DNA from: an uncultured euryarchaeote
GTDB taxonomy: Archaea; Thermoplasmatota; Poseidoniia; Poseidoniales; Thalassarchaeaceae
Direction: 5' to 3'
Assembly (NCBI GenBank): GCA_937901365.1
Contig: CALCEF010000023.1
Span: 1 to 23,377, forward strand
Length of the DNA: 23,377 nucleotides
Under the pieces are notes generated by a model. It saw nothing but the letters and a program-made list of their open reading frames with translations, did not search any database and was not told where the DNA came from. A program made the position numbers and the translations under genes. Numbering within the stretch: the stretch's first letter is position 1; every line of letters begins with the position of its first letter. Of the stretch, positions 13,540 to 19,840 are shown in pieces.

Positions 13540-16500
13540 CTATTCCTTACCGAGGTATGTCAACCATTGACGACATGATGGGCACCAAGTCCAACGGTTT
13601 CCGTTATTCACAGCCTCATGTGCTGGGCCACCACAGGTGGTACACGGTGCGTGAACTCCAGTAGTAGTGATCTGTGCATTTGTTGTTTCAACACCACCAC
13701 CTGAACGACGCATAAACAGAAGCCCAAGAACTACAACTGCAAGTAATCCAATGATGATTACAGACCAAGCCACCATCGAAAGGCCCTCACTTGATGATGC
13801 ATCACCAGTGGATGATGGACAAGCCATCTCTGTACAAGACCATCCCATTTCATCACAGACGCAATCATTGCAGCCATCTCCAGCGGGGCGAGTATCACCC
13901 ACGACGCATGTAGGCTCTGGTTCCGGTTCAGGTTCTGGTTCTACTTCAGGTTCGTAAGTCGAATTCACCCAAAATTCCAATGTCTGACCATCGGTTGATG
14001 TGCTAATCAAACGTAGTGTCAACCGATCATCATTGTCTCCACGTGAGCGCTCAAACATGTCATTGAGTGGGTCACGATCAGGATCATTTTCAGTCCACCA
14101 AGCGATTGCACCAGGAGGTTCAATGTTCAGCATAAGGTGGTCCATTCCCTCTGCTGAATTCCAACTTATTCCATAGATTGAAACAGAATCTGTACTTTCA
14201 ATTGTGGATTTCCAATCGACACTGATTGTCCAAGATGATTCAGAGCCGATAACATCGAGATTCAATTGGGCGGGTAGGTCGAAATCCAATGCTTCATCAC
14301 ATCGGGTTGCATCCTCTGGGTGATTATCGATTGTGAGACCGGTATCAGAATCGGTTGGGCAACCGTCACCGTCTAAGTCGGACCAAGCCAACGGGTCAAG
14401 GAAGAACGCATCCCCTTCCTCAATTCGCAATCCGTTCATGTCTTCTACCCACGAATACATGTCACCCCAACCATCGCCATCCGTGTCCTGATGCTGAAGT
14501 GGGTTGGTTGGGAAAGCGTCACCGCGCTGCTCTGTGCGCAATCCATTTGTGTCAAGAGAATATGAGTAATTGTCCCCAACTCCATCTGCGTCCTGATCTC
14601 GCCATTGCGTTGAATCATCAGGGAACGCATCCCCATGTTCATTGATTCTCAAACCTGTCGAAAAATCAAACTCAAAATAGTGCTCATCTCCAAATCCATC
14701 ACCATCGGCATCACACCACTGATTCGGGTCATCTGGCCATGCATCTCCATACCCTCCGTTGAGAACACAAACTGGCCAGTCAGCATCAGCATCAGACCAC
14801 TGGTCGCCATCCGTGTCTGGACAGCCACCTCTGTCAATAGAAGATGTACCCCAAACGGTTGGACAACCATCACCACCTGCTCCAGGGGCGTTGTTATCAC
14901 CAAAGCCATCACCATCTGTATCAGCCCATTGTAATGGGTTCTGTGGGAAGGCGTCGTTGTCATCGATGACACCATCTCCGTCAGTATCGGGAATGATGAG
15001 CCACCAAGACCCTGTGTGATTGGCGACGATGAGGCCTCCTGTATGGTCTATGGCAAAACCTCGAGGAATGCCTTCAACTGTCCATGTTGCCAATTGTGTC
15101 ATGTTGAGACCATCATAGAATTCGAGTTGGCCTGAGGCACTGTTTGATGCGTCGCCACTGGCCACTACTAGGAATGAACCAGACGTGAAACCGGCTCCAA
15201 ACCCTTGGTCAGTGAATTGGAAAGACAACATTTGTTGGCTATTGAAAGCATCCCAGACAATTGCTTGGCCATCCCATCCAACGGTCATTAACGCGTGGAT
15301 GTCTTGGTGCCAAGTCAACACGCCCGTGTAATTAGAGTGGCTGTATTGAACACCATGATCCGCCCACAGAGTTGGATCCTGATCTTCGGTCATCCACAAA
15401 TGAACTGAACCGTCCTGTGCGGTGCTGCCAAGCCAAGCACCATCGTTACTGAATTCCATCGTCCAATATTCGGTGGCATATTCCCAACCAGTCACCTCGG
15501 CCATTTGATCTAAATCAAGAATCGATACCTTTCCTGCAACGCCCGTATTGCTGTAGTTCTGAGTCCAAGACATCGCGAGTAGGTTATGCATGGGATGAAT
15601 GTCGATTCGCCCAAACGCTTCCATTGAGGGGTGATGTTGATCGATTCTCCAAATCCAAACTTCCTTTCCATCCTCATCACAAGCCACGATGGTGCCGTCA
15701 GAATACCCAGCGATGACAAATTGCTGACGCATGACCACGCTCTTGGCGAACGGATACTCTCCGATCGGTTGATCAAAATCTGGATGGAAACATTGCCTTG
15801 TAATCGCCCCTGTATTGTAATCACGAACTGTGACTACACCATTTGATTCAGCGAAGGCAACGAACAAATCGTCAGGATGAAGATGAATTTCGCGGACATA
15901 ATCTGGACTGATTCGGCGATCGATTTTCAATTGTAGGCTCGAATCAATCGTGTGGATTTCAATCGCACCATCTTTTCCAGATGTTGCATATCTCTGTCCT
16001 TGATCATCGATTGCAATCGCGGTGACATCAGAGGGGTAGGGCTTGTTGTTCCAAACAACACCGTGCCAACCGTAGTCGGAAAGGATTCCACCTGCTGAGT
16101 CAATCATCAGCAAACGACCTGGGTCAAAAAGGCCAACTGCGAGGGCTGTGCTATCAGGCGACCAACGAATGGCTGAGACATTTTGTGGCACAGGAGTGTA
16201 CCAATTAATCGCACCACTATCATGGAAGAAGTCGGTGATTACACCTTCATTCGGGCGATTGTATGCAACCGTGTAGGTTTGGCCCTGTGGTGAGAAATCA
16301 ATCGCCCAAGCCATCGCTTCGCCTCCGGCAACGTTTCTTGTCCATGATTGAGAGAGTGAATTGACCTGAACTTCCCACCCGGTCACCGTATCATGATATG
16401 TTCCAGAACTCGGCCCCTGAACTCGATTCAGTGAAGCTACAAACGTACCATTATTCGATATTGCACAATCAGTTCCCCAATCATTGGTGTAAACATGAGC

Positions 16501-17121
16501 GTTGTCGGGTGGAGAACCATCGATGAAAAATTGAGTATTGGCGACGACGACTTCCCCTCCGATATTTGGATCATTAATCACACCACAGAATACCAATCGG
16601 CTTCGATCATGGGTGATATCAAGACCCCATAGAGAGCCGTCGTAATTCCCTGTAAGATCCGCCGGCCAGAGTCCTGTACGCGAAGTTGTAGAATTCATGG
16701 GCCAAACACCGCCATCATCTACAATCTCAAAGCTGTACCAACGGGATCCCGAATCTGCTGCGAGGACGTGGCTATTGTCTAACCAAATCACATCGACCAA
16801 TGAGTTCGCATGAGGTGCATGGAATATGACGCGACCATCGGTGCTGTTCCAAACCGTTAGCAAATTGGTGGAAATATCCACGGCAGCAATCATTCGACCA
16901 TCGGGTGAGAAATCCACTTCCCAAAGCATGCCTGTGGGTTGGGGCTGCCAAACTTGTGGGCTCCAGCCCGATTGCCAAATAGGACGGTGGGCTTGATTCC
17001 AATTTTGCTGTTGATTGGTTGGTGCTGATGACTCCACGACCTCATCTTCGAGTGCAATTGGTTGACTCGACCAAGCGCATAGAATCAGCATGGAAAGGAC
17101 CCAAAATACCCGCGCGCGCAT
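13540..17121 (-). CDS. surface beta-propeller protein with thrombospondin-3-like repeats, transmembrane helix and cytoplasmic zinc ribbon
   Basis: From ATG 17121 the protein has 1,193 residues. It starts with a signal peptide (MRARVFWVLSMLILCAWSSQPIA). Residues about 60-710 hold repeated WD40-like blades (for example WEVDFSPDGRMIAAVD, AIRWSPDSTALAVG, MEFSNDGAWLGSTAQDGSVHLW). About 711-927 are Asp-rich repeats of thrombospondin type 3 style (DTDGDGVIDDNDAFP, DADGDGFGDEH, DTDGDGWGDMY), which bind calcium. A beta-rich segment, a (PE)n linker and a cysteine module (CNDCVCDEMGWSCTEMACP) follow. Then comes a transmembrane helix (VAWSVIIIGLLAVVVLGLLF). After it a C-terminal zinc ribbon (CTTCGG...WCPSCRQW) should lie in the cytoplasm. 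An ATG at 17148 would add nine residues before the signal peptide. Ligand and role are unknown. The transcript diverges from ftsZ. Confidence 0.82.
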   Translation of the reverse strand: MRARVFWVLSMLILCAWSSQPIALEDEVVESSAPTNQQQNWNQAHRPIWQSGWSPQVWQPQPTGMLWEVDFSPDGRMIAAVDISTNLLTVWNSTDGRVIFHAPHANSLVDVIWLDNSHVLAADSGSRWYSFEIVDDGGVWPMNSTTSRTGLWPADLTGNYDGSLWGLDITHDRSRLVFCGVINDPNIGGEVVVANTQFFIDGSPPDNAHVYTNDWGTDCAISNNGTFVASLNRVQGPSSGTYHDTVTGWEVQVNSLSQSWTRNVAGGEAMAWAIDFSPQGQTYTVAYNRPNEGVITDFFHDSGAINWYTPVPQNVSAIRWSPDSTALAVGLFDPGRLLMIDSAGGILSDYGWHGVVWNNKPYPSDVTAIAIDDQGQRYATSGKDGAIEIHTIDSSLQLKIDRRISPDYVREIHLHPDDLFVAFAESNGVVTVRDYNTGAITRQCFHPDFDQPIGEYPFAKSVVMRQQFVIAGYSDGTIVACDEDGKEVWIWRIDQHHPSMEAFGRIDIHPMHNLLAMSWTQNYSNTGVAGKVSILDLDQMAEVTGWEYATEYWTMEFSNDGAWLGSTAQDGSVHLWMTEDQDPTLWADHGVQYSHSNYTGVLTWHQDIHALMTVGWDGQAIVWDAFNSQQMLSFQFTDQGFGAGFTSGSFLVVASGDASNSASGQLEFYDGLNMTQLATWTVEGIPRGFAIDHTGGLIVANHTGSWWLIIPDTDGDGVIDDNDAFPQNPLQWADTDGDGFGDNNAPGAGGDGCPTVWGTSSIDRGGCPDTDGDQWSDADADWPVCVLNGGYGDAWPDDPNQWCDADGDGFGDEHYFEFDFSTGLRINEHGDAFPDDSTQWRDQDADGVGDNYSYSLDTNGLRTEQRGDAFPTNPLQHQDTDGDGWGDMYSWVEDMNGLRIEEGDAFFLDPLAWSDLDGDGCPTDSDTGLTIDNHPEDATRCDEALDFDLPAQLNLDVIGSESSWTISVDWKSTIESTDSVSIYGISWNSAEGMDHLMLNIEPPGAIAWWTENDPDRDPLNDMFERSRGDNDDRLTLRLISTSTDGQTLEFWVNSTYEPEVEPEPEPEPEPTCVVGDTRPAGDGCNDCVCDEMGWSCTEMACPSSTGDASSSEGLSMVAWSVIIIGLLAVVVLGLLFMRRSGGGVETTNAQITTTGVHAPCTTCGGPAHEAVNNGNRWTWCPSCRQWLTYLGKE
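14343..14988 (-). repeat. in-gene tandem repeats coding thrombospondin-3-like calcium-binding units
   Basis: Within the propeller gene, about five to six units recur with the pattern GDAFP-x5-QW-x-D-x-DGDG-x-GD-x(6-10)-GLR-x-E. The spacing is irregular, roughly 40 codons for the later units. Successive Asp at every second position matches the thrombospondin type 3 / Ca2+ loop style. The DNA copies are diverged, which points to old duplication rather than recent expansion. Confidence 0.75.
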
Positions 17122-17196
17122 GATTGGGCCAGAATTGGCTTCTAACATGAGTCTTCCCTACCGTTGATTAAATGGAAAAATGGATGACTGCGACCT

Positions 17197-17221
17197 GACC
17201 TTCGGATTTTTTTTGAAGGTC
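17197..17221 (+). promoter_or_regulatory. inverted repeat with T8 loop, upstream of ftsZ
   Basis: GACCTTC (17197-17203) is exactly complementary to GAAGGTC (17215-17221). The 11-base loop contains eight consecutive T's. A TATA-like GATAAATC follows at 17222-17229, about 59 bases before the preferred ftsZ ATG. The arms could form a dyad for a regulator just upstream of a TATA box, or an RNA hairpin if transcription starts earlier. It lies in the intergenic region shared with the divergent surface-protein gene. Confidence 0.35.
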
Positions 17222-17287
17222 GATAAATCGCCTTCTCGCTTGATTTTCGGTCGGAATGGTTATCTTACCGACAGCGAGCCTGACATC

Positions 17288-18418
17288 ATGCGCCATCTAA
17301 TTGATAGGGTATTGGAATTGCAAGATGATGAGGAAGAAACGGATGGGACCGTCACCAAGGGAGCGCCTTCAGCGAACAATGCTGAATTGCACGAACTTCT
17401 GAAATCCCTCCAGCCAAGAATTCGAGTTTACGGCTGTGGTGGTTGTGGTGGAAACACCGTTGACCGTCTCAATGCTGCTGGGTTGCTCGACGAAGATTCT
17501 GTGCGGGGATATGCGGTGAACACCGATGCCCAGCACCTGATTAAAGTCGGAATCGACAACAAGTTGTTGATTGGTCGAACCGCACGAGGAAGAGGTGCAG
17601 GTGGAGATCCAGAAAAAGGAGAAAAAGCAGCTTATGAATCAGAGAAGGCTCTACTGAAGACGATTGAAGATTGTGATTTGGCGTTTGTGACCGCGGGCTT
17701 GGGTGGTGGAACAGGAACGGGTTCTGCTCACGTTGTTGCTCGCTTAGCCAAAGAAGCGGGGGCGTTGACCATTGCAGTCGTCACCTATCCATTTGAATCA
17801 GAAGGCACATTGCGACGACAGAATGCTGAGTGGGGTCTTGAACGACTTCGCGAAGTTTGTGACACTGTGGTCGTTTTGCCAAACGAGAAATTGCTCTCTG
17901 TAGATGGAGTGAGAGATTTGCCGATTGAAGCAGCATTCAGAGTTGCAGATGAATTACTGATGCGAAGTATTGCCGGTGTCACCGAATTGGTGACCAAGGA
18001 AGGCCTGGTGAACCTCGACTTTGAGGACCTGCGTTCAGTGATGCTCAATGGTGGCGGAATGGCCATGATTGGCCTCGGTGAGGCCAGTGGTCCAGATCGC
18101 GCTCAAGAAGCGACCTTCGAGGCGTTGGACAGCCCACTGCTAGACATCGATGTCAGTGATGCCCGAGGTGCACTGGTCAATGTCATTGGTGGACCCAACC
18201 TCACACTCGGTGAGGCGGAAGCCTGTGCTCAACAAATTCGCGAGAAGATTAACCCGTACGCCAGAATCATTTGGGGTGCAACGGTGGATCAATCGATGGG
18301 AAGTGAGATTCGGGTCATGCTCGTGCTCACCGGTGTCAAGAGTCAACAGATTTTCGGAGCGGCCGCACACCAGCAACTTCGAACCTTGCAGAATCGAACT
18401 ATTGAGTTCGTAAACTGA
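17288..18418 (+). CDS. ftsZ: cell-division GTPase FtsZ
   Basis: This is a tubulin-family GTPase that polymerises at mid-cell to build the division ring. Numbered from ATG 17288, the N-terminal nucleotide loop is RVYGCGGCGGNTVDRL (about 46-61). The tubulin signature GGGTGTGS is at 139-146. The ribose/guanine region VVLPNEKLL and the T7 catalytic loop NLDFEDLRSVM are also present. The protein ends soon after the globular domain (LQNRTIEFVN) and has no obvious C-terminal anchor peptide. The reading frame extends upstream to a potential start at 17180. That would add 36 residues unlike FtsZ and would read through the inverted repeat and T-run, so MRHLIDRVL at 17288 is preferred. It has 376 residues. 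It heads the ftsZ-secE-spt5-ribosomal-stalk cluster, a conserved archaeal arrangement. Confidence 0.93.
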   Translation: MRHLIDRVLELQDDEEETDGTVTKGAPSANNAELHELLKSLQPRIRVYGCGGCGGNTVDRLNAAGLLDEDSVRGYAVNTDAQHLIKVGIDNKLLIGRTARGRGAGGDPEKGEKAAYESEKALLKTIEDCDLAFVTAGLGGGTGTGSAHVVARLAKEAGALTIAVVTYPFESEGTLRRQNAEWGLERLREVCDTVVVLPNEKLLSVDGVRDLPIEAAFRVADELLMRSIAGVTELVTKEGLVNLDFEDLRSVMLNGGGMAMIGLGEASGPDRAQEATFEALDSPLLDIDVSDARGALVNVIGGPNLTLGEAEACAQQIREKINPYARIIWGATVDQSMGSEIRVMLVLTGVKSQQIFGAAAHQQLRTLQNRTIEFVN

Positions 18419-18504: not shown

Positions 18505-18780
18505 ATGTCCAGTGTCAACGATGGAAACAGTGAGCGAACCGGGTCGTTTGAAGATCGTGTTCAAGGCTGGCAGGATGGCCTTGAATCGGGTATCAGAGGC
18601 CTTGGAAAGGGTTCTTGGGCTCGAATTATCAAGATGGCACGTAAGCCAAGTTCCCTGGAATTCAAGCAGACATGCATCGTCTGTGGGATTGGAATGTTTG
18701 TTCTCGGCTTCATCGGATTTGTGATGTTGGTTCTGATGGACAATGTTCTGCCTCCATTCTTTGACTGGCTAACCAGTTGA
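18505..18780 (+). CDS. secE: preprotein translocase subunit SecE (Sec61 gamma / Sss1)
   Basis: This 91-residue tail-anchored subunit clamps the two halves of the SecY channel. The amphipathic cytoplasmic helix with the conserved core ARIIKMARKPSSLEF is followed by a single transmembrane helix (IGMFVLGFIGFVMLVLMDNVLPP). Both match the archaeal/eukaryotic Sss1 form. The N-terminal 40 residues are longer and more polar than in many archaea. A GAGGTTGA Shine-Dalgarno-like sequence (18494-18501) lies three bases before the ATG. The gene sits immediately before spt5, the standard archaeal order. Confidence 0.88.
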   Translation: MSSVNDGNSERTGSFEDRVQGWQDGLESGIRGLGKGSWARIIKMARKPSSLEFKQTCIVCGIGMFVLGFIGFVMLVLMDNVLPPFFDWLTS

Positions 18781-18796: not shown

Positions 18797-19840
18797 ATGA
18801 CTGACATTGATGAAGAAGAGTTGGACGAAACCAGCGGAAACGAAGAAGAGGCGATGGAAGAACCTGTTCTGGATGAGGTTGATTCAATGGTGAATACTGA
18901 CGAATCTGTTGAAGACGGAGAAGAGCCTTCGGAAACAGAAGAAGTCGTTACAGAAGCACCGTCATACAGTGGTTCTGATGCCTTTGTGGTATTCGTTCGA
19001 CATGGTGACAAGGTTCTGCTCATGCAGCGGGCTGATACAGTCGCAGATTTCCCTGGTGCATGGGACGGGGTCTACGGAATTGGCAATCCTCAAGACGTTG
19101 ATGCTGTCGCAAGACGAGTTGAAGAAGCCACGGGCATTTCTGTCGCCAACTTAACACATGTTCGAAGTGCAGAAGCCCGAGGATTGGAATTCGGTAATCG
19201 TCTGAACGATGTGGTTCCAATTCTCTTCCAATCAGAATCCCCAGAGGTTGAGCCTCGAACCCTATACAATCACGCAGAATGGATCGACCCTGGTGTAATC
19301 CAAAATTATCAGTACAGCATCCCTCAAATCGGTGAGCTCTACGGTGACGTTGCTTCCTATCTCTTCATCCTCAAGACGACAATGGGACAAGAGCACAAGG
19401 TTGCCAGTGAAATTCAAGCCAGACTTTCTGGTACTGGTTCACTGCAAGATATCAAAGGCGAGATTTTTGGTGTCCTTTGCCCGACCATTCTGAATGGATA
19501 TATCTTTGTCGAAGCCAGCGCGATTCACCATGTTGAGAAACTAATCGGTCGTGCTGGTGGGCGAACAACCCCCCTCAAAAACTGCAGAAAGGTATTGCCA
19601 GGAACATCACCTTTGGGTGATGTCACCCCATACCTAGAGCCGAAGTCCGCAACGGCTGGAATTGAAGAAGGTGACATTGTCGAAATCCGTGTTGCTGCTT
19701 TCAAGGGCGAGCGAGCCCGTGTGACAAACGTTGCTGAGAACAAGGAAGAGGTTACTGTCGAGCTATTCGATGCTGCAATTCCAATCCCGATGACAATCCG
19801 CGCTGATCAAGTTCGCGTCACTCAGCGCGCAGCCGAGTAA
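18797..19840 (+). CDS. spt5: transcription elongation factor Spt5 (NusG) with an N-terminal acidic region and a Nudix-like domain
   Basis: The C-terminal part (residues about 187-347) is an ordinary archaeal Spt5. Its NGN domain (SYLFILKTTMGQEHKVASEI...GYIFVEA) clamps RNA polymerase together with Spt4, and its KOW domain (IEEGDIVEIRVAAFKGERARV) contacts the ribosome or RNA. Archaeal Spt5 is usually about 150 residues; this one has 347. Residues 1-60 are strongly acidic. Residues about 62-175 read as a Nudix fold: VLLMQRADTVADFPGAWDGVYG, then RRVEEATGI in place of the Nudix box core, and later VVPILF and AEWIDPG. The box is shortened by about two residues and lacks several catalytic glutamates, so hydrolysis is doubtful. 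A GGAG at 18785-18788 lies eight bases before the ATG, and the frame is unbroken through all domains. Confidence 0.9.
   Translation: MTDIDEEELDETSGNEEEAMEEPVLDEVDSMVNTDESVEDGEEPSETEEVVTEAPSYSGSDAFVVFVRHGDKVLLMQRADTVADFPGAWDGVYGIGNPQDVDAVARRVEEATGISVANLTHVRSAEARGLEFGNRLNDVVPILFQSESPEVEPRTLYNHAEWIDPGVIQNYQYSIPQIGELYGDVASYLFILKTTMGQEHKVASEIQARLSGTGSLQDIKGEIFGVLCPTILNGYIFVEASAIHHVEKLIGRAGGRTTPLKNCRKVLPGTSPLGDVTPYLEPKSATAGIEEGDIVEIRVAAFKGERARVTNVAENKEEVTVELFDAAIPIPMTIRADQVRVTQRAAE

Follow-up and report, generated by a model that had tools for sequence, protein, structure and literature searches.

A Nudix-fold domain with lost catalytic residues stands in front of Spt5 in the archaeal order Poseidoniales

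The window analyzed here is a 23,377-nt stretch of contig CALCEF010000023.1 (assembly GCA_937901365.1) from an uncultured euryarchaeote of the family Thalassarchaeaceae, order Poseidoniales, and it encodes the transcription elongation factor Spt5 with an additional N-terminal domain. We found that the front domain of Spt5 in Poseidoniales is a former Nudix enzyme that has lost catalytic residues and is strongly conserved, and that the fusion is real, ancient and typical of the whole order. A core elongation factor has thus been rebuilt order-wide, with a former enzyme as a fixed extra domain at the end that contacts the polymerase. Because the domain is catalytically broken yet strongly conserved, its present role is probably to bind something beside RNA polymerase, which raises the question of what it binds and whether binding sets polymerase behavior.

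A first-pass annotation had proposed a Nudix fold joined to Spt5 in one unbroken frame. Profile and structural comparison bear out the fold, with residues 60-185 of the window protein showing both a Nudix sequence profile and a Nudix fold, and the fusion is confirmed by the same junction across the order. A Foldseek search with the whole predicted model returned Spt5 and NusG chains at the top and Nudix chains from rank 17, and a sequence search of the Protein Data Bank with the Nudix profile (E ≤ 0.01) gave a single match, an NADH pyrophosphatase. The remainder of the protein is Spt5. PF03439 (NGN) scored 40.4 bits (cut-off 22.4) and TIGR00405, the archaeal Spt5 equivalog, 109.7-111.6 bits (cut-off 69.95). 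PF00467 (KOW) alone reached 15.6 bits, under its cut-off of 22.3; the KOW domain was assigned because TIGR00405 spans residues 190-346 and this segment aligns to near the end of solved archaeal Spt5.

The fusion is found throughout the order

The fused protein was matched in 269 of 318 genomes of the order (E ≤ 0.001), including all 35 of high quality; such a match may cover one part only, and the matches listed mostly span residues ~58-345. The Nudix profile alone had exactly one match in 44 of 45 genomes, drawn at ≥88% completeness plus our own genome at 81%. All 44 matches lie in fused-type frames, bar one that is cut at 157 residues (G152), and in the sole genome lacking a match (G076) Spt5 starts at a contig edge. 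Our own genome has one full Spt5, and G035, a single contig of 2.06 Mb, carries the fusion.

In the other 49 genomes of the order, no match to the fused protein was found. When 14 weak- or no-match genomes were re-searched, pieces were found in 13 and none in G254. The pieces begin at a contig start in five genomes (G116, G038, G076, G229 and G152) and are split over two contigs in G261 and G168; one partial piece each was found in G045, G288 and G136, and a two-piece match on one contig in G197, G006 and G134. Spt5 frames below 288 residues occur, among the matches listed, in G171, G283, G238 and contig C36 of G173. The first runs off its contig, and those of G283 and G238 start at contig base 2. 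The last is a plain Spt5, which looks like contamination from the sister order because G173 holds the fusion too. Among the genomes read, which were not every genome, no intact Nudix-free Spt5 clearly belonging to the order was seen.

An assembly join, a chance resemblance or frameshifted neighboring genes, favored only by the fragmentary draft state of our own genome (376 contigs), can be set aside as practically negligible, because the identical junction recurs in many separate genomes, including the single contig of G035. We also considered an internal start that would yield a Nudix-free Spt5, and thought it unlikely. Residue 181 is encoded by ATG or TTG in 75 of 82 proteins (CTC, CTA or TTA in the remaining 7), with a Shine-Dalgarno-like motif upstream in only 2; in the window protein, no start codon occurs between 10 codons before and 7 after this residue.

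Catalytic residues are lost and new residues are fixed

To compare positions, we used an alignment of 84 fused sequences, namely 82 distinct proteins of ≥271 residues together with the N-terminal portions of L117 and L118; proteins that were shorter or truncated (e.g., L056, L058 and L059) and the KOW-only L002 were excluded. Ten of 12 stand-alone Nudix relatives were aligned with them (L135 and L137 were left out). An active Nudix hydrolase carries the motif GX5EX7REUXEEXGU (excerpt of PMC4666351). The stand-alone relatives have Glu at 107, 110 and 111 (10/10 each), whereas the window protein has R, E and A there, in agreement with the broken box that had been noted at first sight. Across the fused proteins, Arg replaces the first Glu of REXXEE at 107 in 82/84, position 110 is Glu in 75/84 and Asp in 6/84, and Glu at 111 is found in 0/84. 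The Nudix box is also shortened, and the DWEH of the relatives is lost. Hydrolase activity has therefore probably been lost as well, and binding without hydrolysis, as originally suggested, is the probable mode judging from these residues.

Other positions have become fixed: Y157, D90, Y182, G183 and V185 in 84/84 and D164 in 83/84. Decay would scatter positions, yet new residues are fixed, indicating that the domain is dead-looking but constrained. To judge from their positions relative to the Nudix box, residues 90, 107, 110 and 157 may lie in one pocket.

The fused Nudix domain is under purifying selection. The median ratio of nonsynonymous to synonymous substitution (dN/dS) in genus g1 was 0.070 for Nudix, 0.042 for NGN and 0.044 for KOW (37, 34 and 55 usable of 55 pairs), and in genus g15 it was 0.065, 0.022 and 0.000, respectively (10, 15 and 15 of 15 pairs).

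Ahead of the Nudix start, ≥15 residues are present in 10/84 aligned proteins and <15 in 74/84, counted from the first start codon of each frame, so some tails may be untranslated. In part of the genus of the window, an acidic tail (charge −12 to −26) precedes the Nudix domain (window 18797-18973; L003, L004, L009 and L070).

A stand-alone Nudix gene was probably added in front of spt5

Of 21 sister-order genomes, 18 gave an Spt5 match, and in the six proteins read NGN and KOW come directly after a short tail. A survey of the phylum gave matches to the fused-protein profile in 57 of 60 genomes. All 9 genomes from the order match the profile over its full length or lack only the final position. 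Among the remaining 48 matching genomes, the Spt5 match starts at profile position 95 in one, whose protein was read and has no Nudix part, and at ≥118 in the rest. Thirteen of these 48 have a separate match to the Nudix part. The 12 such loci read (L126-L137) all encode Nudix proteins with an ExxEE box, mostly of ~130 residues and most with a VHPFLF...DWEH signature. In the sister order, a stand-alone Nudix gene was found in 7 of 21 genomes (L155-L161). Beyond the phylum, coverage was an exact-word scan of genome contigs, which an independent fusion in other phyla could escape. A viral origin was considered and rejected: in one scan of viral contigs, 68 stretches matched a pattern and 0 were relatives.

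Separate Nudix and Spt5 genes in related genomes had been put forward as a sign of an assembly join. Separate genes do exist in the outgroups, but with the fused form spread through the whole order they point to an evolutionary fusion and not to such a join. In a tree of 38 rows (22 aligned fused rows plus L117, 10 stand-alone proteins, 3 of the 7 loci from the sister order and, from our own genome, 2 of the 4 other Nudix matches), the 23 fused domains group as a single clade (100/100) with a stem length of 2.82. This clade sits within or beside the stand-alone group; its exact sister is weakly supported, and both outgroup rows are long-branched.

Among seven genes sought around spt5, SecE is the next upstream in 34/34 loci, and L11 lies downstream on the same strand in 32/34. 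Since these neighbors are kept, spt5 was probably already at this locus when it gained the Nudix part at its front. We propose that, at the base of Poseidoniales, an archaeal Nudix gene that had stood alone was fused to the start of spt5; its product would then have lost hydrolase activity and come to belong to the single Spt5 of these archaea. A different, beta-sandwich domain occupies the same N-terminal place in other lineages of the phylum, which suggests that Spt5 has gained domains at its front end more than once.

Two further architectures were seen. A Nudix domain of the same family ends a longer frame in L131 and L132 (G341 and G373), and the part before it resembles, by eye, a mobile swivel-type domain. 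In L145 (G349 C145), Spt5 has, by eye, a long helical-looking insert inside NGN.

The Nudix domain is likely near the polymerase clamp contact

In the predicted model, the last Nudix helix (178-185) is followed after two residues by NGN strand 1 (188-194). In Methanocaldococcus jannaschii Spt5, changing A4 to R abolished polymerase binding (excerpt of PMC3223566), and this A4 aligns with I191 of the window protein. With the helix almost directly joined to this strand, the Nudix domain is likely close to the clamp contact, at an angle that the model leaves unfixed.

Spt4 (PF06093) was found in 40/40 genomes of the order, our own genome matching only model positions 37-77 of 77, so the usual Spt4/5 complex can form. 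In Spt4 at L148-L152 (G000 C176 and four relatives), from the genus of the window (4 genomes read) and G275, ~50-60 extra residues lie between the two zinc-binding pairs, the second of which is CPxH or CPxC.

TFE and Spt4/5 compete for the clamp (excerpt of PMC3223566), and loss of TFE was considered as a cause of the fusion. TFE (PF02002) was not found in 13/13 genomes of the order. It was likewise not found in the sister-order genome G333, which has a plain Spt5, and of 60 genomes from the phylum just 12 had a match above the cut-off. The link is therefore not specific, and we rejected it. Strong TFE matches (>50 bits) occurred in 6 genomes, too few for a conclusion, and none of these belongs to the families seen with an extra folded Spt5 domain.

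Possible roles of the fused Nudix domain

We tentatively favor, at somewhat less than even confidence, the explanation that the Nudix domain is a binding module for a small nucleotide-like ligand or a partner peptide, whose occupancy alters Spt4/5 on the clamp. The pocket would have been rebuilt around the new fixed residues D90, R107 and Y157, with E110 kept in most proteins. The domain would sit beside the spot where NGN grips the clamp, and an occupied pocket might change how Spt4/5 sits there, much as arabinose bound by the dead Nudix domain of AraR makes the attached DNA-binding domain turn. A narrower form, which we consider rather unlikely, is a built-in metabolite sensor: the inactive Nudix domain would bind a nucleotide-like signal and change the clamp grip of Spt4/5 through a rigid helix-to-strand junction. 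If so, transcription as a whole would follow the state of the cell in an abundant order of marine archaea.

Several points weigh against the binding module. No ligand or partner of the fused domain is known, and in structure it matches NrtR and AraR no more closely than it does ordinary hydrolases. The geometry between the domains is not established by the model (pTM 0.53), the single pocket is a suggestion from Nudix-box positions, and since most proteins retain E110, the domain may still bind some metal. The Nudix part is under less constraint than NGN and KOW in both genus sets; dS is near saturation, which makes the dN/dS values rough, and Nudix pairs were usable only in 37/55 (g1) and 10/15 (g15). 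Finally, the 84 aligned proteins are skewed to one family, 69 being from Thalassarchaeaceae (f1) and 15 from f2 (we take the labels f2 and f3 to be Poseidoniaceae and Marine Group III).

A close second is constitutive docking, which we regard as possible. Here, the dead Nudix domain would be a ligand-free protein surface that braces Spt5 on the polymerase, either at the clamp or where the main channel has its rim, or that brings in a partner such as the ribosome or a termination or processing factor. The short helix-to-strand junction with its invariant Y182-G183-x-V185 argues for it, as do the NGN inserts relative to solved archaeal Spt5 seen in 35 aligned rows, and the beta-sandwich domain at the same place in other lineages looks as if the site favors docking domains. 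However, a pure surface would not need new fixed residues at or near the old catalytic site (90, 107, 110 and 157), if these do form one pocket.

CFIm25 (NUDT21) is a non-catalytic Nudix domain that binds RNA and works in RNA metabolism. By analogy, the fused domain might read the nascent transcript close to the exit or inside the channel, and its placement on the polymerase would suit this role. We consider this improbable. The Nudix part is acidic, with a median net charge of −11 (range −19 to −4, 82 proteins) against +2 for NGN, which makes RNA binding less likely, although this acidity is shared by 9 of 10 stand-alone relatives. The lone Protein Data Bank match, as mentioned above, is an NADH pyrophosphatase. 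CFIm25 was absent among the 50 listed structural matches, with no direct comparison made. The CFIm25-like RNA binding or 5'-end sensing first imagined for the domain thus found no support, its closest relatives found being stand-alone archaeal Nudix proteins, and binding of a protein or ligand suits the domain at least equally well.

That the domain is still an altered-box enzyme, hydrolyzing a nucleotide at or near the polymerase, is very unlikely: the fold is intact and residue 110 remains acidic in most proteins, but the Glu at 111 is lost throughout, the first REXXEE Glu is nearly always Arg, the box is shortened and DWEH is gone.

Features of the window and neighboring genes

Table 1. Coordinates of the fused gene, its parts and its neighbors in the window
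Feature	Coordinates	Strand	Remarks
FtsZ	17180..18418	+	TIGR00065, 372.6 bits
SecE/Sec61-gamma, gene before the fusion	18505..18780	+	TIGR00327, 42.1 bits (cut-off 36.2)
Acidic N-terminal tail, residues 1-59	18797..18973	+	Predicted disordered (pLDDT <50); net charge −25
Nudix-fold domain, residues 60-185, catalytic REXXEE lost	18974..19351	+	
Degenerate Nudix box, residues 94-114	19076..19138	+	R/E/A at Glu positions 107/110/111; column counts versus stand-alone relatives
C-terminal Nudix helix, residues 178-185	19328..19351	+	Invariant Y182, G183 and V185; NGN strand 1 (188-194) almost directly after
NGN domain, residues 188-283	19358..19645	+	PF03439; alignment to solved archaeal Spt5
KOW domain, residues 284-347, and stop	19646..19840	+	TIGR00405 over 190-346; PF00467 below its cut-off
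Ribosomal protein L11, next gene downstream of the fusion; RNA-binding domain alone, 92 residues	19910..20188	+	PF00298, 28.8 bits

L11, counted from the first start codon, has ~92-112 residues in 12/12 loci of the order read, versus 150-162 in 9/9 outgroup loci. The short form is without its N-terminal domain at the locus, which we take to be the stalk-base domain. A second KOW copy (66% identical over 61 residues) opens an otherwise unrelated frame of 379+ residues at L002 and L154 (G000 C340), which has CxxC pairs and no Pfam match. On the minus strand, positions 13540-17148 of the window encode a 1202-aa protein with WD40-type propeller matches, mostly under curated cut-offs, and with repeated D-rich stretches that, by eye, resemble calcium-binding repeats.

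Comparison with known systems

The fusion had been thought undescribed, and no description of it was found in the open-access literature searched, with preprints and most subscription papers beyond the search; nothing was found there on NusG fused to a Nudix domain either. Spt5 is a listed marker in a paper on Poseidoniales/Marine Group II (excerpt of PMC9258230), and Spt5 and Nudix occur separately in one archaeal paper (excerpt of PMC8576121).

Archaeal Spt5 consists of NGN plus one KOW (excerpt of PMC3382729). The fused form is like archaeal Spt5 (TIGR00405) in having NGN and KOW, SecE before and L11 after, and an Spt4 partner gene; unlike it, it has a Nudix domain of ~125 residues in front and inserts in NGN. 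It has also diverged, with 111.6 bits to TIGR00405 in the window versus 135.7-162 in 18 sister-order matches.

The best sequence relatives found for the fused domain are the stand-alone archaeal Nudix proteins of the same phylum, with which it shares W89, G94, R78, PxL (141, 143) and W162. The stand-alone proteins keep ExxEE (12/12 read) and mostly DWEH, whereas the fused form is without both. In HVO_1934 (NUDIX/eIF-2B) of Haloferax volcanii, too, an archaeal Nudix domain is joined to a factor of gene expression; its partner domain is eIF-2B-like rather than Spt5, and the likeness is drawn from a table entry, not from sequence (excerpt of PMC8576121).

In NrtR and BtAraR, as here, a Nudix domain with an impaired box is N-terminal to another domain of the transcription machinery, and there it is used as a sensor (excerpt of PMC4666351). 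The broken-box Nudix domain of BtAraR binds arabinose, and its helix alpha-4 links to the next domain and is its turning hinge (same excerpt). However, the C-terminal part of those regulators is a DNA-binding winged helix, whereas here it is NGN-KOW on RNA polymerase. Lacking this winged helix, the fused Spt5 is not a member of the NrtR/AraR family and at most works like one.
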